A DNA stretch of 64,000 nt from Bactericera cockerelli (Eukaryota > Arthropoda > Insecta > Hemiptera > Triozidae): positions 17,613,084-17,677,083 of the forward strand of contig CM044964.1 in the NCBI GenBank assembly GCA_024516035.1, given 5' to 3'. Below the pieces are notes generated by a model, which had not been told where the DNA came from, did not search any database, and saw only the letters and a program-made list of their open reading frames with translations. Of the stretch, positions 30,101 to 61,723 are shown piece by piece (position 1 is the first letter of the stretch; each line of letters begins with the position of its first letter). The translations under genes and the position numbers were made by a program.

Positions 30101-33100
30101 AGATGTTCTGAAGGATATTTCAAGTGAGTTACCTAATCTCTTATCTTGAAATAGGATTAATAAAGTCTCCTTATCCTAAAGAAAGAAAAGTACATTATGT
30201 AATTTAATTATTAGATCTGTTCCATGGATCATGAAAACTTCTCAACTGTTCTACTCTTTATATCTCTAAAATAAAAATAAAAAAATCGAGAAGAATATAT
30301 GAAAATAAATAGATTTTAAGGAATAGTCGAAAAAAAAAAATATTTCAAAAACTTCCCATGCCGGGAATTGAACCCGGGCCTCCCGGGTGAGAGCCGGGTA
30401 TCCTAGCCACTAGACAACATGGGATCGTGTTGGTAGGGGAGAAACTTCTGCTAAATAAATGTGAAGGGAGAGAGGAAGTGGAGTCCTCTGTTCAGATGAC
30501 CTTGGATTGATATTGTAGAATGATGCAGCGCTTCTCAAACTTTATTCATTGGGTCTTTTAATACTTTTCACCCGCGGCATATTTTGATGTCAAAAGTTTT
30601 ATTTATTTGTTTTCGATAGTTATTTAGTTATCTTTGGTTAGTTATCAGCTTGTTTTAATAGTTTATTGTTTTTTTTTCTAACATTGTACATGGTTTTCAT
30701 TTGTTTCCCTAGCAAACAATGCAGCCTCCTCCTCACTACCCCCTTCTAGCGATCTCATTGAAAGCAGGACTGATCAACATGTGCCATGTGAAGCACTGAC
30801 CACTAGCCAGTCAGGGAGGCAGTATGACACAATCAGGACTGGTCAACCTGTGGCATCAGAAGGGCTGCCATCTAGTCAGGGGAGACAGTTTGACGCCTGG
30901 GAAATCAGAAATGGTCAAAATGCGGCATCTGAAGTGCGGGCCACTAGTCAACTAGGGAAAGCGTATGATAGGAACCTGTATGCTGGCCATGCCTCTTCTG
31001 CAGGCAGGGAAAGGGTGGAGGTGAATCAGAATTCATCAAAAAAGGTGAGGCTTTGTTACTTCATATGAGAACCAAACCTTGTAGCTCAGTAGGTTGTGTG
31101 ATAGTTGATACCGTGTTATAAGCACTGTAGTTTCTGGGAGGCGTTCTCCCGCGCAACACCCGTTTCGCTTGATATGTTTGAAGAATTATTTCTGATGAGA
31201 TAATCTTTAGCTAAATTTCCAAATGGATTTACGTTTCGTTACAATGTTACATAAAAACAGGGGGAAAAAGAGAGAGAGAGAAAATGTCCACGCATACATT
31301 ACAAACATTGATAAAAGTCAAACCAGCTCTGCTGAAGTGATGATCTCACTGACGGGATTCAATTTTAAACAAAACTCATTGGATTTATAGTGTTTTGAAT
31401 TTTTTTTTTTTTTTTTCAACAAAATACTCTTTATTTATTTTAATTTTACATAATATACATTAAATATTGTGAGTTTATGAGGTACTATTGGTATTCTATT
31501 CTTTTATTCTATTGGTATTCAATAATAGAATTGGTATTCTATTATTGTTGACCCAGCACCTAAATGGGAAGTACGAGGTACGTCCGGAAAGTAAGGGGAC
31601 AATTGTCGTAGGGGTTGTTAGGAATGTCTTTTTTTCAAGGTTGGCATACCTGCTTGTAGGGGAACTCCTAACGGTCACAATGAGCCCTTGCCCATCTCAG
31701 TTCATTGGAAAATGTCGTCGCAGGAGCCCGTCGCGTCAACCTCTACAGGTGCCGTTCGCTCCACCTACCGCAGGTGCGAGATTCGGGCAGTTTATCACTT
31801 TGCGTAGGAATTCAGCTGCTGAAATCCATCCTCAGCTACTGAAAACCTATGGACCTGAGGTGATTTCACGTTCCAAGGTTTTCAAGTGGGTTAAGAAGTT
31901 TAAAGAAGGTCGCACAAACACACACGATGAAGAAAGAAGGGGCCGTCTGTCGTTTCAGAAGAACTTGTGCAGCAAGTCAATGAAAAAGTCGCAGCGATCG
32001 TCGTGTGACCCTCAAAACCGTATTCCTCTGACCTGGCGCCCTCGGATTTTCATCTGTTCACGAAACTGAAGGAGTTATTGGCTGGAAAAAGGTTTTTCAG
32101 CGACGAGGAGGTCAAGGAGACAGTGGAGAAGTGGCTGTTGGAGGTGGAGCAGAGCGTGTATGACGAAGGCAGAAAAAAGTTCAGACCCAGGATGCAGAAG
32201 TGAGTGGAGCTTGACGGTGATTATGTGGAGAAATAAAGGACTATATTTGGAACTTACCCTGTAAATTTTATGAAAATATATGCATTTTTCGAGTTTTAAC
32301 ATCAATTGTCCCCTTACTTTCCGGACGTCCCTCGTATTTATTTAAAGTATTGTGTCACTTCTCACCCATTAGAAGGGAGGGAAACTATGGGATGGACAGG
32401 CTATAACACAGACCACAAGCATCTACAGTAGCTCCTGCTTCATGGCAACGAAATAAAAAAAAGGCTGTGAAACTGAAACACTCATCTTTAATATATATAT
32501 ATTTTTTTTGCAGACAACCAATGAGACTGAACTCAATCCTACGAGGAACCCTCAAAGTGAGACCCAGGCCAAGTTTCAAGAAAACACTCCAGTCGGAGCT
32601 CAAGCTGATAGGAGAGCCACCCAGCCCGAGAGACACACCACAAGGGAAGAGGAAAACAGTATCATTCAAACTTTGGCCAGTGAGAGGCAAAAGCTGTTAG
32701 AGTACAAACTGAAATTAGGTACATGAAATTCACTCTAATAATAATAATTGATTAGTTACTTTGTATTTTTAAATCACAATTTTAGTAACCAGCATGGAAT
32801 TATAGGACTTTTCCATTTCTTTCATGCATCATTTGCCCATAACTCCGCCGCTGCGCGCTGGTCACATCGAAGGAGCAACTCATTTTTCCTCACGAGTATG
32901 AGTGAAGCCCTCTCATCCAAAGTATGGAGCCAAAAAAAATCCTTCTGTGCTGGGAATGGAAGGACTCGGACCAATAAATTGAATTGATCTAGCTGTAAAC
33001 ACAAGATGTACCATTTCTATTTCAACATCACAAATAGAAAGATAACTTGACATGTCCCAGCTGAGTTTCGAAGTGGCGACTTCTGGATTACCAGACCGAC

Positions 33101-33859
33101 GCCTTAACCACTGAGCTACTGGGACTGACAATGTTATTATTATTTCATTATTTATTTGAAATGACTTTTATATTATTATACAAAAAATAATTACAAAATA
33201 CAAACACAAATTTGGTAACAAGAAGAAGAGAGAGATATCATATGGTAGCCAGACAGTGGAGGAATGACTCATCACTTCTACCACTGTCTTTACAAGTTAC
33301 AAGGAGGCTAATAATTGACAAGGGCCTCCAGAACCAAGCCAATACTGGTCTACTCCCTGTTTATAGTCCCCCAGCCAGACTGCTGGTCTACTCCTTGTTT
33401 ATAGTCCCCCAGCCAGAAGATATAGCTAACCAAAAAACGGGGTTATTGTCTGTGGCAATCTCTTCCACCCAACTCTTGATTGTTGTGCTGTTGTTGTTGT
33501 TGTTGCAGAGAATGAAGAGAGGAAGCGACAACTTCTGGAGGAGAAGCTGCGAATGGAGCAGCAGACCAGACTGAACGAACTGTTGAGAGAAGAGAACGAG
33601 AGATTGAAGAGAGATAAGGAGAAGAGGGATACGAGAAGTGTGCTGGAGGAGATGAGAGGAGAGGACAGTGAAAGGTAAGTGAGATGCGAGGAGAGGATAG
33701 TGAAAGGTAAGTGAAGGAATCAAAGAGAAGTATTGTGTCACTTCTCGCCCATCAGAGGGGAGGCATACTACGGGATGGGCAGGCTACAACACAGACCACA
33801 AGCGTCTACAGTAGCTCCTGTTTCACGGCTACGAAATAAAAAAGGCTGTGAAACACTCA

Positions 33860-33890
<31 letters not shown>

Positions 33891-36800
33891 GAAAAAGAAG
33901 AGAAAAAGCTACAACTCAGACCACAAGCATCTAAAATAGATTTTATTTTATAGCTATGAAATAAAACAAGCTGTGAAACACTCATGTTTTTTATCAAAGA
34001 TTATTTTTAGTGTTGTGTTGTTTTTTTTTTTTTTGTACTCGCAATCGGATGTGCGAAAAAAACACAGTACGTTATGTTTTAAACCAATACAAGTTACGCA
34101 GAAATTATTCCCTTTAACATTAATTTGTAAAGCTTACCTCTAAAAGAAATATACTTTTTTTTTGCTTAATTTCCTTACACATAGGCCATTTGAGATGGGA
34201 GTTTTACCCCCCATGCGCTGGAAACTTTTAAACCAGCTACTCACATCAACCACACCCAGCCTAGGTTGGACCTAGAATAACCCACATCCAAGTCGTAACC
34301 TCGCTGTACGTTGCTCCACTTAAGTGACAGGACGAGAACTCGTGTATTCAATGTGCCTTGGACTCTGGCTAATCCGCTAATTTATTTATTTAAGTGCACT
34401 GGTAGTCAAGTGGTTAACGCGCTAGGCTGGTAATCTAGGTAGTGTAGGGGTCCGTTGGTTCGAATCCCACCCAGCGCACGAATTTTTCCTCAATTTCAAT
34501 TAATTTGAGTTTGTGACCACAAAATAATTAGACTCTGAGGGTTAGGTAGTAGAAAATGCTTTGAGCATTAACCTCGCCTGGTGGTACCCTTTCACTAAAG
34601 AGTGTCACTATTTAAGAATATTAAATGTGTATGTACAAAATGTCTGTTTAAATTTGAAAATAAACAAGACCTTGTTTAGACTGCTGGAATAAAGGGACTT
34701 TTTAGTCTCACCTCGGCAGTATAAACAAGGTAATTTCTATTCTATTCTATTCTAATTTCTATTTTTTTTTTATTTTTTTTTTTAGAATTTATGTATATTT
34801 GTATTAAATTTTTAGAAAATTTGTTACAATTTCTATTATTATTATTATTATTTTCTTTTTCCAGACAAGACCAAGACGAGGATGAAGAAAGAAAGCTGGA
34901 GGAATATCGCAGGGAGCTGGGTAGACTCAGGCAGATGAGGAGCAAGGAGGAAGGGAGGGGGAGAGGAGGGAGAGGGAGGGATAAGGAGCTGAGAGTCAAC
35001 ATCATAACCAGTGGGAGACGCAGCAAGAGCTGTCGGGGGTAAGATCCGGGTCCTTCGTCCCTTTCCCTATTTTTTTTTTTTTTTTTTTTTACAATAATTG
35101 ATACTTTATTGGCCAGCCTCCGTGGCGTAATAATTGAAACTACTTCCCGTAGTCCAGAGATCCCGAGTTCGACTCCCGATTGGGGCAGACTTTTCGAAGA
35201 AAATTCTGTTCCTCCGAACGCGTGAGACTGGCATTTCCGGCCCTACCCAGGCTGGGTGAGGTAAATGTAGGTAGCTGGTACGATTCCCAGCGAATGGAGG
35301 GTAAAACTCCCGTCCTGACTATCACAAGTCAGGATGTTAAAACCATATAGAATCAATGGACATGAAAGGAGCCTAGACATTGGATCTGGGCGTCCATTTA
35401 ATCCTCTCACCACCGTGATTTAGGTATCTATATCTATCTCACGGACACGGAATTATTAATACTTTATTTACATACCGATCTCAGTAGCTTGATCCATAAA
35501 GTATAGAAAGTATTGTGTTGAATTTATGTTTATTTTTTTATACCGAGTCTGTCGGACCGACCTCAGTAGTTTGATCGATAAGGCGGCGGACTTGTATCCT
35601 GGAGGTCGGTGGTTCAAGTCCCGGTTTCAGCGTGGATTTAGTAAAGCGAGTTTCAGTAGTTGTGACATCACGAAAGTGATTAACCCAAATATGATAACTT
35701 AACTTACTTTACTTTATGTATATACTGCTAGTTGTATGACTAAAAAGAGTCCCTTTTTGCTATCAGTTCAAACAAAGTCTCATTTATTGGTAATACTACC
35801 TTTCTTTTTTTAAAGATGAAGGTAATGATAATAATTTTGCCTTATTTGTCCTATTTAATAATGTTGCCTAATTAATCCCATTTAGGACTAATAAGTCCCA
35901 TTTTATACTGCCCAATGAGGACTAATAAGTCCCATTCTTCTAGCCGAAAACATTATTTGTATTATTATGTGGTCATAAATCATAATACCAAATGAGATTA
36001 TTACTTGTCATGTCCCAGCTGGGGTTTTTCACACTTACATGTCTATTTTGAGGTATCGTCAGGTAAACATGAGCTTTCCGACCTTGTTGTATGATTATCA
36101 GTATAGTTTCTTTGAGAAAAAAAGCTGGGTTTCGAACCTGCGACCTATAGATTACCAGACTGACGACTTGACCACTGAGCTACCGGGGACGTCAGAGATG
36201 ATAATCAAAGAAAAAGTAACTGGCTTCGCTTGTTTTTCCCTGTCAAGTAGCTTTACATTTCCAACAACAACCTCCACTTGTTCCTACGAACTTCAGTTAA
36301 TTTTAGTGTTTTAATTTATTTATTTTTTTACTTTAATCGCAAACAAGTTGCCTTTTTATTTACAATAATAGGTACATATTATACAAAATAAACAATACCA
36401 GCTGAGTAGAGGTATAAAAACAATAGAAATGTTACAACTTACTACAAATAAAAGAATAAGAAGAAAATAAATGTTACAAGTGAATTACAAAATGTTACAA
36501 ATTATTACAATTGGTGTTTTAATCTTAACTTAAAAGAACAAATTTTTAGCTCAATTAAGTATATGTTTCTGGAACGGTAGACAATGAAAACGTAGACGAA
36601 CGGAGCAAGGCAGTTTCGAAGTTTATTTTTATTTTTAAACCTCTTGTGGTATTGACGTGTCTTGTGTTTTTCAGATAGAAAACCAACTTTAGTACTTTTT
36701 ATTGCGATCGAAAACACCCCATGAGGGTGGGCCTGGGGTTTGGTGCGTTGAGTGGTGGATGGTTTGAGTGTGGGCTTGGACGGGTCGGCTGGCGTACTAT

Positions 36801-39800
36801 ACCTTGTATAGTACGCCTTCAATTTCAATTCAATTTATTTATTGTGTTAAATGTATGTACAAAATGTGTATTTAAATTTGAAAATAGACAAGAGACCTTG
36901 TTTAGACTGCTGGAATAAAGGGACTTTTCAGTCTCACCTCGGCAGTATAAACAAGGTAATTTCTATTCTATTCTATTCTATTGTGAAAAAATTCAGTACC
37001 AAAAAGTATGTGTTTCACATCAAAGATATTAAATCTAGAATTAGTATTAAAATTATTATAATCTAGAATTAGTATTAAAATTATAAAAAAAAAAGTTATT
37101 ATATTTGTTTTAATCACTTTCGTGATATCACAACTACTCAAACTCAAATTACTAAATCTACGCTGAAACCGGGACTTGAACCTCATTAAAATTATAATGT
37201 AGAAATCATATAATGAAAAGAAAAGAAAACAATCTATGCCTTTTGTAATCTATGATTTGTAAATAAACAGTAAACACAATTATTTTGTGCCTATTATTAT
37301 TTTGGTAGGTATTTCACTCCTTTATCAGTCATAACTTTAACAGTAATAAAAGGTTGGGTGAAAGAGATTGCCACAAACAATAACCCCGCCCTTTAGGTAG
37401 GACATTAGCTTCATTCTCTTTTTTGTTCTTGTTTCTTTGTTCAATCTATTTAATTTTTCTTTATAATTTCTTTGTATTTTACTGTATATATTTTTGTCTT
37501 ACCTATAATAATAACTTCGCCTTATTTATACTGCCCGATTAGGACTATTAAGTCCCATTATTCCAGCAGTAAGCTCAAGACATATTATTATGTGGTAAAA
37601 ATCCCAAATGGGAGGATAACTTGTCATGTCCCGGCTTGGTTTCGAACCCGCGAACTCTGGTATCTCTGGATTCACAGAGTGCCGCCTTTACCACTGAGCT
37701 ACCGGGACAGTGGTAAAGGCGTATGCATTGATACCTAATGCATACTATAGTAATATAATAATAATAATTGATTGATTCCATCAGATCTCGACGAGATTCA
37801 TGTCTTGGACACAGCAGCACAGAATCAGATGAAAGTTTTCTCTCAGATAAAACTTGGCCACCTTCCCAAGTCAACCTGCATGAAGAAGATCTGACTAGTC
37901 CTGAAGTTACCACCCGAGGGAAATGTAATAAGGTAAGGTGTTGACCCAGCACCTAAATGGGAAGTATTGTGTCACTAATACAACTTCTCACTTTTCTTTT
38001 TATACTGATTAAAATAGAGAGGTTAGTTGATGGCATGGATATTCAGAACTATTACCTGCTGATGAGAGCAAATAAGCTCGAAACAGCTGTCCAGGTATGT
38101 TCTGATATTTATGTACATCTAATTGATCTAATACAACTTATCACTTTTCTTTTTATACTGATACTTCTCGCCCATCAGAGGGGAGGCATACTACGGGATG
38201 GACAGGCTACAACACAGACCACAAGCGTCTACAGTAGCTCCTGTTTCATGGCTACGAAATAAAAAAGGTTGTTAAAACACTCATCTTTAAAAGAAAAAAA
38301 AAAAAAGGTGGAATAGTAAGTAGATAAGTAGTGCTTTATTTAGACTGTAGGCGAAAGACAGGAAGTCCCATTATGCCAACAGTTTACCAGAGTATTTTTG
38401 TTTTTTTTTTTTTTTTTTTAAAGATGGGTGTTTTACAGATTTTTTTATTTCGTAGCCATGAAACAGGAGCTACTGTAGCCCATTATGCCAAAAGTTTACC
38501 AGAGCATTTTTGTTTTTTAAAGATGACTGTTTTACAGATTTTTTTATTTCGTAGCCATGAAACAGGAGCTACTGTAGACGCTTGTGGTCTGTGTTGTAGC
38601 CTGCCCATCCCGTAGTATGTATCCCCTCTGATGGGTGAGAAGTGACACAATACTTCCCATTTAGGTGCTGGGTCAACACGAGCGTACCCGAAGATATCCC
38701 TTAGAAACAACTGTAACCAAATTTTGAATACTATTTTTTGTCGGCGCGGGGGTTCGAACCCGGGACCTTCCACATGGCAAGCGAGTGGTTAACCACTGAG
38801 CAATGAGCATCTCTTTATTTATTTGATACAGTAAATTTTAACAAAATAGCTATAGGTAAAGTAAGATAAGTAAGAAGTAAATAAAAAACACAGATTCACA
38901 CCAGGTACGGTAGTGTAGGAGGGTCATTAAGAGAGGGGAAGTGGAATGAGGATTAAAGAATTATTGTTTTTTTTTTTTGCCAACAGCTTCAGTGAGGGAA
39001 AATATAAATCCAAAGAAAGATGAGTTGAGGATAGGGGGTGGAATGGAGTTTCAAATTACAATTGAGGATGTGAGAGAATATGTTTTACTAGAAGTCCTCT
39101 AGCTAGTCCAGTAGTTACCTCCCGTAGTAACAAATTTTCTCTCTCCCCTCCAGTGTACATCCAAAAAACTACCTCATCTACCAGCCGGCCCGCCCAAGTC
39201 CACACTCAAACCATCCACCACTCAACGCACCAAACCCCCAGACCCACCCTCGGGGGGTGTTTTCGATCGCAATCTCAGGGCTTTTGAAAAGGAGCGGCTC
39301 GGCAAAGACTTTAAGAAGTTACTGGGGGAGCTAGAGCATTTGTCACGTGAGGAGAGGAGGATCAAGAGCCGGGGGTGTCTGCTGCATGATGATGTGAGTT
39401 TTTTTTAAAAAAAAATATTTATTTATTTAATAACAGGATAACATATACAAAGGTATTTTTCCTAAGCTAAAGCTTCTAAGAAAGCTTGTGAATTTTAAAT
39501 TAACTGAAGGGATCTACTCACTTTTCACAATTACCCTATCTTATTCTAATATAAAGACTTGGGTCTAATAAAATACAATAATATTTAAAACTAAGGTCTA
39601 ATATTCGTAAAAAAGATACTTATAATTCTAAGGGTTGGCTCTACGCATTGGTCTCGCGGATGGAAACAAGGTCCTGAAGTCTGATTCTGAGTTCAACGAA
39701 CTGTTTATTTTTCTGCTTATTGTTGTTGTAGCGAACTTAGCTACAGCTGAGGGAGTGATAATCTCTATCCAACTTCAGTTGAAAATTTGGCCCGATGGCT

Positions 39801-57290: not shown

Positions 57291-57299
57291 TTAAATGTT

Positions 57300-57350
57300 A
57301 CCTGCTGATGAGAGCAAATAAGCTCAAAACAGATGTCTAGGGATGTTCTG
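57300..57350 (+). ncRNA. Degenerate hammerhead ribozyme copy
   Basis: Keeps CTGATGAGAGCAAATAAGCTC of the core and stem II, but the essential GAA has become AAA (57326) and stems I and III are broken by substitutions. Likely inactive; related to 38044-38104. Confidence 0.75.
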
Positions 57351-58341
57351 AATTACATTGTTTTCCATATCTTCAATTGATAATTTCATTAATGTTTCGA
57401 ATTTAATGCATCACTAATTTTCATTTGAAAAAAAAAAACCAGCTTATCCGAGGAGAAATATTCTGTCCAAAATGTTTGACTTGGGTGAGATTCGAACCCA
57501 CGACCTAGGTATTCAGAAAAGAAGAGCACATTCCTTGCAGCAACGTTAATCATTTAATACATCTTTACCTACCAATAGTACAAAACTTATATGAAAAACA
57601 ATTGTTATGGCCAACTAAGCATAGTTCATTTCATGTGAGTTTAAATAACTACTACATTATTATTAAACGTACAAAATTTATAATTATGAAATTCAATAAA
57701 TGTAACGTAAACATTTCATTTAAACTATTTTCTCCTTTCTTCTTAATTCCTCTATTATTACTATTTTTACCCCTCAATTATTTGGACCTCCCTACGTTCC
57801 AATCCCAACCATTTGCATTTACAGCAAATCTGTGAAAGCTTCTTTTGTGATCAAAGTAATATTCATGAACTATAATAACAATTTTGATTTTTAAAAAAAT
57901 CCCCCATCCTTAGTATCGAGCCTGATAAAAGAAACGATAGGTATTCAAGGAAATACTCAGATGTTGATATCCAAATATGTTGACATGAATATCATTATTA
58001 CTATTCATTACATTACTAAGTACGAATGCTACTTCTATCTATGATTGTTATTATTACAATATTACATTTCTTAACTTCTGTCATCTGACAGGAACCACTG
58101 TATTCACCATGTGATCTCTGCGTTGTTATAATAAAATTGAATTCATTTTTTGGCACATTTAAATAAATTTACTAGTACAATAACTTATGACAGAATAAAA
58201 AATACATTTTTACTTTCCTTTATACTATAGAAAATTTGGACCTTGTAATTTTACCACTACAACAACTTTTGACGGAATAAAAAATACATTTTTACTTTCC
58301 TTTATATTATAGAAAATTTGGACTTTATAATTTTACTACTT
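57351..58341. repeat. Non-genic DNA ending in an 82-bp tandem duplication
   Basis: Units around GACAGAATAAAAAATACATT (58189) and GACGGAATAAAAAATACATT (58271) are 82 bp apart; the LINE inserted in the next partial unit. A tRNA-like B box (GATTCGAACCCACG) is near 57490. Confidence 0.6.
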
Positions 58342-61300
58342 TGGCGTAGGGACGTGGCGACCCCATCGACCATCTACTTCGTGTAGATGCAATCAGCCTC
58401 CCTCTGGTTCAAAGCGTAAGCGATTCCAGGGGGTCACAGAGTGCTGCTCAGAGTCACCTTCTCTGGTAAGATTTTCACTCACAGGGTGGGGAGCATCGGA
58501 GTGAGCTACTCTGGTGAGTGGAATTCCAGGCACCCCCCTTCCTCCCAGGGGTTGCAGGGAACTTCTCACTGGTGGAAAGTCCTAAGAGGATGATTCCAGT
58601 GGGCCCAGGTTTCCCCTCTTTTGAACACTCAAATGAGGGTTTAGCGTTGGATTAACAGTCCACCTAGTAAAACCACCCCTTGTTGTGGAACAACTACAAG
58701 AAGCCTCGGATATGAACCTGTCTCAACTGGCTGCCCGGAACCCCCCCAAGGATATACCTTTTAGGATACGGAATAAACCCCTACGTTTGGGAACGTGGAA
58801 CGTTAGAAGTTTAGGAGTGCCAGGAGCTTGTGATGCTTTAACTAAAGAATTAGAAGAGTATCAAATGGATATTGTGGCCTTGCAAGAAGTCAGATGGCCA
58901 GAAACAGGAAAAGTGTTATCCAATAAATATATAATTTACTATAGTGGGTCCAGAGAAGGAAAATTTTACGCAGGAGTGGGTTTTGCAGTTAACAAGAAGT
59001 ATGAAAAATCTGTTATAAGTTTTGATGCAATTAACGATCGACTTTGCACATTGAGGATTAAAGGAAGATTTAATAACTTGTCCTTAGTATGTTTCTATGC
59101 CCCAACAGAGGATGCAAGCGATGAGTCCAAAGATGATTTTTATGAAAACATTGAAGATGTCTGGAACAAGCTGCCGGGATATGATACGAAACTAATGTTA
59201 GGAGATGCGAATGCAAAAATAGGAACAGAAGATATCTGGAGAGATGTATCTGGAAAAGAAAGCCTTCACTCAACATCAAATGACAATGGAATACGCCTTT
59301 TAACTCTAGCTGTTGCAGGTAATTTGAAAGTAGCAAGTACATCCTTTCCTCGAAAACATATCCACAAAGGAACATGGGTGTCTCCAGATGGTAATACAGT
59401 CAACCAGATTGACCATGTTCTGATCGACCATAGGCATAGGACGCTCGTGACCAACGTGCGTACCATACGAGGAGCAGAATGCGGCTCTGACCATTACCTG
59501 GTTCTTGTTAAGATCACACAAAGAATTCAAAACCCAAATAAAAGAACTGAAAATAGACAGAGGCAATACAATGTAGATGTACTAAAAGACGAAGCCAAGA
59601 TCAATGAATATAGAGTAGCACTGTTAAACAGATTTCAAGTATTAGAAGAAGAAAATGAAGATGAAAACGAAGATGTAATGGAAGGAAGATGGGAGAGATT
59701 CAAGAACATCGTTCAAGAATGTACAAAAGAAATATGTGGATACAAAGAAGGACGTCCAAATAAGCCATGGCTAGACCGCGAGTGCGAAGATATGATGAAA
59801 CAGAGAAAGAATTTGAAGGAGCAATGGTTAAAGAAGGGACAAGAGGAGCAGAGACGTAATTACAACAATCAAGTTCGAGAGACAACAAAGACACTAAGAA
59901 AGAAGAAAAGAGAATGGATCAACAATACTCTGAGAAGGGCGGAAGAAGACCGAACAAACAACAATAGCAGAGATTTCTACAGGTCTATCAGATTCTTCAA
60001 AAAAGGTCATGCTCCGAAGTCTTATGGAGTCAAAAACGCAAATGGAGATCTTGTGATGCAAGATGATGAAGTGTTGGGAATATGGAAAAACTATTTTGAA
60101 TCCCTGTTGAATGGAGACCCTATTAATAGACAAAATGAAGAAAGACTTGCTTTTCAAAATGTTCAACCCAACATTCCTGAACCAGACTTGGAAGAAGTGA
60201 AAGAGGCAATTAAGCTATTAAAAAACAACAAAGCTCCAGGAGAGGATGGAATCACATCAGAAATGATCAAAGCGGGAGGTGAAGTAACAGCCAAAGAAAT
60301 ACTTGAACTCATCTTAGAAATATGGGAGAAAGAGGATATACCCAAAGAATGGAAAGAAGCCGTCATCATACCCATCCATAAAAAGGGAGACAAGATGAAT
60401 TGCAATAATTATAGGGGGATATCGCTTTTAAATAACACATACAAGATTCTCTCGAAAATCATTCAAAAAAGATTAGACCCCTACATTGACACAATCATCG
60501 AAGAAAATCAAGCTGGTTTCGTGAGAGGGAGATCGACGGCGGACCAAATTCTGATAGTGAAGGAAGTTTTAGCAAAGTATTGGGAATACGACAAGAGCTG
60601 CTACCTATTATTTGTAGATTTTGCCAAAGCGTACGACAGTTTGGACAGGCAGGAAATTTGGCAGAAAATGGAGAATTTTGGAATTCCTCAAAAACTTATA
60701 AAAATGGCGGGTCTCAGCGTCTTGAACTCCAAATGCAAAGTTAGAATTGAAGGCACCACAACATCACCGTTTGACGTTAATACCGGAGTCAGACAGGGGG
60801 ATGGAATTTCGCCAGCACTCTTTAATATTGCCATCGAGGAAGCCATAGAATCCACAAAGAACCTAAATTTGGGTATTGAAATGGGGAAAATCAATGTACT
60901 AGCCTATGCCGACGACATTATTATAATATCTGAAAATCCCGAAAACCTCATTAACATGACAAAGGTTCTGATCAAGAAAACAGAGTCAGTGGGATTAAAA
61001 ATAAATGACGATAAAACAAAATGGATGTTCTTTGCTCGACCAAACACTCGGTCACAGGTAGCTGGTAATATATTGAAAGTAAATGATCATATGTTTGAAA
61101 AAGTTAAAGATTTCAAATATCTTGGAGTGCTACTAAATGAGACAAATAATGAAGAAGTTGAAATCCTCAGTCGAATAAATCTAGCTAACAAAAGTATGTG
61201 GGCATGCAACAAACTTCTAACATCCAAACTTATATCTAGAATCACAAAAACACGCATCTACAAGACCATAATTCGACCGGTCCTAACTTACAATGCCGAG

Positions 61301-61723
61301 AATTGGATACTTACAAAAAAATCTGAAAAGAGACTCGTAACCTTCGAGAACAAAATTTTACGCAAAATCTTTGGACCAATAAATGATCAAGGCGAGTGGA
61401 GAAAACGACATAACAAGGAAATAAGGGATCTTTTTAACCAACCTGACATTGTGGGGGAAATAAGAAGCAGCAGATTAAGATGGACCGGACACATTTTAAG
61501 GAAAAAGGAAAATACTATGATAAGGCAAGTCATCATAAGCAGTCCAACAGGCAGAAGACCAAGAGGAAGACCTAGAATAAGATGGTGGAGTCAAGTGAGG
61601 AAAGACATGCAAACAATGGGACTTACCGAGCAAACTGCGGAAGACAGAATTCAATGGAGGCAACAAGTAGTTGAGGCTAAATATCAACTAGGATATACAT
61701 GGCCGTGGGAGTAAGTAAGTAAG
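58342..61723 (+). mobile_element. RTE-like non-LTR retrotransposon, apparently full-length
   Basis: 3.38 kb between 14-bp direct repeats TAATTTTACTACTT (58328-58341 and 61724-61737). It has a 370-bp 5' UTR, one long open frame, and practically no 3' UTR: the stop codon overlaps (TAAG)n, the short tandem 3' end typical of RTE elements. The open frame and clean target duplication point to a young insertion. Confidence 0.9.
58712..61714 (+). CDS. RTE-like endonuclease-reverse transcriptase
   Basis: 1000 residues from the first in-frame ATG; the frame is open nine codons further back from a GTG. Apurinic-type endonuclease motifs are complete: LGTWNVRSL, ALQEVRW, CFYAPTED, LGDANAKIG, IDHVLID and GSDHYLV. 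Reverse transcriptase blocks follow in order: APGEDGITSEMIK, YRGISLLNNTYKILSKI, QAGFVRGRSTADQI, FVDFAKAYDSLD, GVRQGDGISPALF and the catalytic LAYADDIII. The C-terminus has RLRWTGHILRK and GRRPRGRPRIRWW, common in RTE and related clades. No frameshift or stop was found, so the protein may be active in target-primed reverse transcription in the nucleus. Clade assignment from motifs is likely, not certain. Confidence 0.93.
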   Translation: MNLSQLAARNPPKDIPFRIRNKPLRLGTWNVRSLGVPGACDALTKELEEYQMDIVALQEVRWPETGKVLSNKYIIYYSGSREGKFYAGVGFAVNKKYEKSVISFDAINDRLCTLRIKGRFNNLSLVCFYAPTEDASDESKDDFYENIEDVWNKLPGYDTKLMLGDANAKIGTEDIWRDVSGKESLHSTSNDNGIRLLTLAVAGNLKVASTSFPRKHIHKGTWVSPDGNTVNQIDHVLIDHRHRTLVTNVRTIRGAECGSDHYLVLVKITQRIQNPNKRTENRQRQYNVDVLKDEAKINEYRVALLNRFQVLEEENEDENEDVMEGRWERFKNIVQECTKEICGYKEGRPNKPWLDRECEDMMKQRKNLKEQWLKKGQEEQRRNYNNQVRETTKTLRKKKREWINNTLRRAEEDRTNNNSRDFYRSIRFFKKGHAPKSYGVKNANGDLVMQDDEVLGIWKNYFESLLNGDPINRQNEERLAFQNVQPNIPEPDLEEVKEAIKLLKNNKAPGEDGITSEMIKAGGEVTAKEILELILEIWEKEDIPKEWKEAVIIPIHKKGDKMNCNNYRGISLLNNTYKILSKIIQKRLDPYIDTIIEENQAGFVRGRSTADQILIVKEVLAKYWEYDKSCYLLFVDFAKAYDSLDRQEIWQKMENFGIPQKLIKMAGLSVLNSKCKVRIEGTTTSPFDVNTGVRQGDGISPALFNIAIEEAIESTKNLNLGIEMGKINVLAYADDIIIISENPENLINMTKVLIKKTESVGLKINDDKTKWMFFARPNTRSQVAGNILKVNDHMFEKVKDFKYLGVLLNETNNEEVEILSRINLANKSMWACNKLLTSKLISRITKTRIYKTIIRPVLTYNAENWILTKKSEKRLVTFENKILRKIFGPINDQGEWRKRHNKEIRDLFNQPDIVGEIRSSRLRWTGHILRKKENTMIRQVIISSPTGRRPRGRPRIRWWSQVRKDMQTMGLTEQTAEDRIQWRQQVVEAKYQLGYTWPWE

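Follow-up and report, generated by a model that had tools for sequence, protein, structure and literature searches.

A probable 1.2-lap retrozyme copy in an intron of Bactericera cockerelli, from a dispersed family of hammerhead repeats that share an internal 3' end

We analysed a 64,000-nt stretch of Bactericera cockerelli DNA (GenBank assembly GCA_024516035.1, contig CM044964.1, positions 17,613,084 to 17,677,083 of the forward strand), hereafter the window, in whose positions all coordinates are given. The original prediction placed a hammerhead ribozyme in the sense strand of a 1.2-kb intron, and this holds: the intron is 1,221 bp long (37933-39153, forward strand; AAG/GTAAGG ... CCTCCAG/TGT), its splice signals are good and the flanking exons are open in one phase. 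The host gene is putatively CEP295-like, from the similarity of an upstream ORF; a Pfam search with four exon pieces of the gene returned nothing above cut-offs. The intron also contains a SINE-like host repeat with an A-rich end (37938-38306, forward strand); inverted repeats (I1-I4) mark an inverted copy of it just downstream (about 38431-38680). Further copies were found at 33722-33882 and 32345-32502, and at 31546-32502 a mariner-like element is apparently nested in another copy of this repeat.

The SINE-like repeat is interrupted by an insertion at 37975-38162 on the forward strand, whose start is ambiguous within 37975-37977. It consists of one full 153-nt unit (38010-38162), delimited by two successive 3' end points, to which is added a 35-nt copy of the unit's end, so that upstream (37975-38009) and downstream (38128-38162) copies of the same tail, 34/35 identical, stand as direct repeats at a spacing of 153. 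The insertion had been described as 187 bp long with 33-bp direct repeats; both the insertion and its repeats are real, but the sizes are now 186-188 bp and 35 nt. The empty site, reading GTGTCACTTCTC, is preserved in three further host-repeat copies, the inverted one among them. A possible target-site duplication, ACT, flanks the insertion (37974-37976 and 38163-38165), but it is ambiguous at 1-3 bp and its right-hand copy may instead be the start of a stutter repeat.

The unit carries a type I hammerhead ribozyme (38044-38104, forward strand), recognised by the anatomy of its elements, a structural descriptor, Rfam and folding. Every element of the core was located where it had been predicted, on the sense strand: CTGATGA (38059-38065), stem II GAGC/GCTC (38066-69/38076-79) with loop AAATAA, GAA (38080-82) and C17 (38091), with the predicted cut between 38091 and 38092, 159 nt past the 5' splice site. 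Stem I has six inner pairs (38053-58/38092-97) and six outer pairs (38044-49/38099-104). Stem III comprises the two pairs AC/GT (38083-84/38089-90) around AGCT, and its strand, ACAGCTGT, is palindromic and dimer-prone, as foreseen. All 18 of the 18 pairs in stems I-III are Watson-Crick, and the canonical features of helix III, a stem I internal loop and a hexaloop are present. The descriptor gave this single match on both strands of the window, against 3 matches in 100 order-1 Markov control windows. Scoring with Rfam, as the original prediction had proposed, gave Hammerhead_HH9 as the best match (E 5.7e-5 for the whole window), but its 34.6 bits fall below the gathering score of 52. The fold of 38030-38115 is far below that of its own shuffles (z -5.5, 0/200). 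We also found a decayed second ribozyme fragment at 57293-57351 on the forward strand, 90% identical over 59 bp, in which GAA has become AAA (G12 changed). This fragment adjoins an antisense tRNA-derived SINE, and its flanks are unrelated.

In the predicted fold, stem I extends into a long rod that reaches about 38020/38129 and bears the ribozyme at its end. When the whole 1,221-nt intron was folded, stem II and outer stem I had pairing probabilities near 1 and most inner stem I pairs reached at least 0.84, with the pair beside the cut at 0.21. Stem III had a probability of 0 in the predicted ensemble; the hammerhead fold, if forced, costs 6 kcal/mol under an energy model that ignores core, loop and tertiary contacts. 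Since the palindromic stem III strand pairs elsewhere in the free fold, RNA in monomer form may be cleaved poorly. Co-folding of two molecules gave -46.9, against twice -21.5 apart, with an eight-pair intermolecular stem III, making a dimeric mode of the hammerhead plausible in the model. Folded as a circle, the unit reached -39.5 kcal/mol (z -4.6), and 0/200 shuffles were as low.

A search of the genome, which has 565 million bases, showed that the unit belongs to an abundant repeat family, and the ribozyme is therefore not a property of the host intron. Places that match the 21-nt tail with two mismatches or fewer number 7,656 (3,791 plus 3,865), a count in which copies of several laps figure more than once and of which a small part was read; the reversed-pattern control gave 4. 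With a 188-nt query we obtained 680 first-look candidates, 40 of which were scored, in 56 matches, and further copies are 89-95% identical to the insertion over most of its length. Searches of viral contigs, prokaryote genome contigs and phages gave no match. Most of the other copies read have a unit of 144 nt, which lacks the 9-nt segment at 38117-38125 at the base of the rod. This segment also differs between units of one insertion (L008, L012, L021, L028, L033 and L036), as if a reverse transcriptase slipped there.

Across 40 insertions from the 188-nt search, a sample biased to long copies, the core positions are intact in 48 of 54 full ribozyme units, although this count ignores insertions inside the core, of which L008 has one. 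Variability is 2.9% in the ribozyme, 3.0% in the tail and 3.3% in 38010-38043; it rises to 7.2% in 38105-38116, which includes two subfamily sites. From these sequences, the family members look like copies that evolve free of further constraint, and the ribozyme shows no hint of being held more tightly than the rest.

We examined where copies end in a set of exact-tail places; the first 100 of these, taken contig by contig from C1 to C7, form 81 loci. Removal of eight with near-duplicate flanks left 73 loci, and six more run past the fetched stretch, leaving 67 readable ones. Above 21 nt the set is free of length bias, but it requires an exact tail and is a non-random sample of the genome; three of the removed loci (L133, L136 and L144) may be separate insertions with similar flanks, and one pair that is 92% alike over 679 bases (L099/L100) was retained in full. 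Most 3' ends coincide: in 61 of the 67 loci they lie between -1 and +3 of a single internal point, the equivalent of 38162 in the downstream tail, where copies usually end in TATACTGAT, and six end elsewhere. Likewise, 36 of the 40 insertions found with the 188-nt query end within -1 to +2 of it. Many 3' ends are followed by a stutter, as happens in target-primed reverse transcription: ACTGA recurs at most 12 nt past the end in 42/61 insertions, whereas the 12 nt just before the 5' end contain it in 1/61. The corresponding figures in a second set of 65 insertions are 40/65 and 2/65.

The 5' ends vary. Counted in 144-nt laps from the common 3' end, 32 of the 61 insertions stop in lap 1 (at 0.17-0.64), 25 in lap 2 and four later, so that 29 exceed one lap and 57 are shorter than two. 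The excess over one lap varies continuously across copies, the 35-nt terminal repeat in the window being one instance. The direct terminal repeats are not LTRs: they arise where a copy somewhat exceeds one lap of its 144-153-nt unit, and their length changes with 5' truncation, unlike that of an LTR. In lap bins picked after the data had been seen, no stop fell at 0.68-1.0 lap (0/29), whereas 13/29 fell at 1.0-1.25 lap (Fisher 4e-5). A set retrieved with 62-63-nt queries has a shallower trough, with 3/29 stopping at 0.68, 0.74 and 0.90 lap and 18/29 at 1.0-1.35. Copying crossed the ribozyme cut site in 35/61 insertions, and L002 alone has its 5' end exactly there. In the second set of 65, 16 of the 35 ends outside the tail lie in 38072-38096 (8.2 expected, P 0.01). 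The early 5'-end sets of 40 and 65 insertions were biased to long copies by their 188-, 63- and 62-nt queries, and for this reason we keep the 5'-end peaks at 38126 and 38089 out of the main evidence.

Repeats of the flanks are rare. Repeats of 18, 22 and 27 nt, possible long target duplications, were seen in the flanks of three copies among 100 (L003, L044/L012 and L086), against a maximum of 12 among 500 shuffled pairs, and two of these three may be host tandem repeats; the remaining lengths are no longer than in shuffled pairs. At four loci (L016, L017, L018 and L031) the 5' junctions are rearranged, with pieces of the ribozyme region repeated out of order, which suggests template switching at a structured end.

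We consider it probable, at about 80%, that the window copy is a 1.2-lap metazoan non-LTR retrozyme, whose cycle would consist of ribozyme-cut RNA, circles and reverse transcription from an internal start. The ribozyme anatomy, the empty site, the repetition in the genome, the common 3' end, the stutter, the variable 5' ends and the copies of more than one lap are all seen in the sequences themselves. In the cycle that we propose, multimeric RNA would be cut between 38091 and 38092 and the monomers closed into circles. The reverse transcriptase of an autonomous element would then nick DNA and begin copying at one internal point, 38162. It would stutter at the start, circle the RNA, often overrun its own start and then stop, and this stop would leave a variable 5' end together with a direct terminal repeat. 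These features point to target-primed reverse transcription that begins at a fixed internal place, and the chances that its template was a circular RNA appear to be about even.

Copies that cross the ribozyme cut site require a template either left uncut or ligated again. A circular template would bring the enzyme back to its own cDNA after one lap, and the stop rate in the 0.68-1.0 stretch agrees with this, at 0/29 in lap 1 and 3/7 in lap 2 (p 0.005). The insertions may record target-primed reverse transcription on a ribozyme-made circle, in which the enzyme starts at one internal site, stutters, nearly always finishes the lap when it has got beyond the ribozyme and then falls off on meeting its own cDNA; this reading is tentative, and we rate it somewhat below even odds.

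A linear template is the alternative that survives best, and it too is quite possible, although we hold it to be clearly short of even. Here the same internal start would be used on linear multimeric transcripts of tandem copies, and the extra laps would be neighbouring units. The units of one insertion are indeed sometimes of differing subfamily types (L008, L009, L012, L031, L033 and L034). At three diagnostic sites, adjacent units of one insertion agree more often than by chance, which favours the main reading: they are discordant in 7/27, 5/39 and 5/49 cases among the 40 insertions, against 13.7, 19.0 and 20.4 for random pairing. The discordant neighbours nevertheless mean that not every multi-lap copy came from one circle. 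Moreover, three of the four lap comparisons show no significant difference, the other three stretches giving 6/61 in lap 1 and 5/21 in lap 2 (p 0.14), 20/55 and 4/16 (p 0.55), and 6/35 and 5/12 (p 0.12). In vitro, a lizard Penelope-like enzyme likewise begins copying at an internal position of RNA that has not been processed (PMC11167929). However, a linear template by itself leaves unexplained both the contrast in stops between the two laps and the burst of stops just after one lap, and with 57/61 insertions shorter than two laps, long multimeric sources look few.

It is unlikely that the ribozyme serves as an intronic regulator which cuts the host pre-mRNA between 38091 and 38092 and alters splicing, as has been proposed for amniote intronic hammerheads. 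The sense orientation, the intact core, the intron signals and exon frames, and the pairing of stem II, outer stem I and most inner pairs at 0.84 or above in the whole-intron fold would all suit such a role. On the other hand, the ribozyme is a copy of a dispersed repeat, stem III is unformed in the predicted ensemble and the 40 insertions reveal no extra constraint on the ribozyme. As it is as variable as the tail and 38010-38043, a special role of the intron copy gains no support from the family. Cleavage of the host pre-mRNA by the intron ribozyme is possible, but beyond its position and intact core nothing positive speaks for it.

Less likely still is that the insertion is a solo pseudo-LTR left by a Penelope-like element together with its 30-40-bp tail. 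The 35-nt terminal repeat fits the published tail length, and the genome does hold five 838-aa frames with a GIY-YIG match. However, the one Penelope-like copy that was read (L097, 4,501 bp) lacks TATACTGAT on either strand, and the unit has only a weak antisense match to it (64 bases, 67%, E 0.004). The original prediction had likened the ribozyme to the dimerising ribozymes of Penelope-type elements; the palindromic two-pair stem III is present, but two such pairs with a tetraloop are described for animal retrozymes as well (PMC7229834), the ribozyme is of the canonical and not the minimal form, and it comes with a repeat family. Chance resemblance to a hammerhead, to which the control matches of the loose descriptor and an Rfam score below gathering might point, can be dismissed as extremely improbable, given the second related fragment in the window and the core positions intact in 48/54 family units.

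Penelope-like elements have been suggested as helpers of retrozymes (PMC7229834), and the internal start of the lizard Penelope-like enzyme was linked by its authors to the 30-40-bp tail (PMC11167929). In the B. cockerelli genome, GIY-YIG matches number 25, and five lie in open frames of 838 aa. One such element, L097, has an intact frame of this length and, upstream of the ORF, a candidate minimal hammerhead with a palindromic stem III (reverse strand, about 1068); this was found by eye, and an Rfam search of L097 did not report it. Two candidates for a shared 3' end in the window were rejected. A LINE at 58637-61714, with a 1,025-aa open frame containing endonuclease and reverse transcriptase domains, ends in GTAAGTAAGTAA, and an occurrence of TATACTGAT at 36097 on the reverse strand lies in a tRNA-derived SINE. 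Twenty further tail places (L098-L117) showed the 3' part of the unit at 0.17 to 1.1 lap, with L103 and L104 running past the stretch. Among these few stretches and the window LINE, none was a LINE sharing the retrozyme tail end. The stutter repeats recall the 3' ends of LINEs, and a stutter would suit a LINE-type enzyme. If the stutter does reflect such an enzyme, the Penelope-like helper proposed in the literature is not the one involved.

How the self-cut RNA of animal retrozymes comes to occupy new genomic sites has been proposed, not shown, in the literature searched. A family with a common start and measurable stops makes this integration step testable from genome sequence alone, including whether the template is circular or linear, which enzyme is used and how frequently cutting by the ribozyme comes before copying.

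The present family can be set beside several known systems. The schistosome Sm-alpha and W-elements are likewise SINE-like or satellite repeats with hammerheads, a likeness of description and not of alignment (PMC8490949). Amniote intronic hammerheads (HH9, RF02275) provide the best Rfam match and also lie in the sense strand of introns; however, they are conserved in fixed introns across amniotes, whereas the ribozyme described here is a dispersed repeat copy (PMC6155905). Penelope-like elements with minimal hammerheads share the internal start of reverse transcription proposed here, partial tandems and short or no target duplications (PMC11167929, PMC3846280). Their 30-40-bp terminal tail is similar in length to the 35-nt terminal repeat in the window, but across copies of the present family the excess over one lap varies continuously. 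They differ in that an insertion of 188 bp is too short for a reverse transcriptase/GIY-YIG ORF, in that stem III here has two pairs and a tetraloop where a minimal hammerhead lacks helix III nucleotides, and in the lack of the tail from the one Penelope-like copy read, L097.

The closest likeness is to the metazoan non-LTR retrozymes, which are described as short, non-coding, low-GC units with a canonical type I hammerhead, a highly self-paired RNA, tandem or partial-tandem copies and a stem III of two pairs closed by a tetraloop (Cervera and de la Pena 2020, PMC7229834). Judged against this class, the unit has a GC content of 0.327, below 50%, and the modelled ribozyme has the three helices, stem I internal loop and loop II of a canonical type I hammerhead. 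At 144-153 nt the unit stands at the lower edge of the published range of 150-450 (PMC7229834), and 29/61 insertions exceed one lap. In the class, target duplications exceed 4 bp when present; the possible duplications here measure 1-3 bp in the window and 18-27 nt in 3/100 copies, of which two may be host tandem repeats. The common internal 3' end, the stutter repeats and the heavy 5' truncation are features of the present family; none of "truncat", "microsatellite" and "internal initiation" appears in the main text of PMC7229834, and in the literature searched we found no retrozyme described as having a shared internal 3' end that stutters. On sequence grounds, the window copy is best regarded as a member of the known retrozyme class, and the record of its copying is unusually clear.
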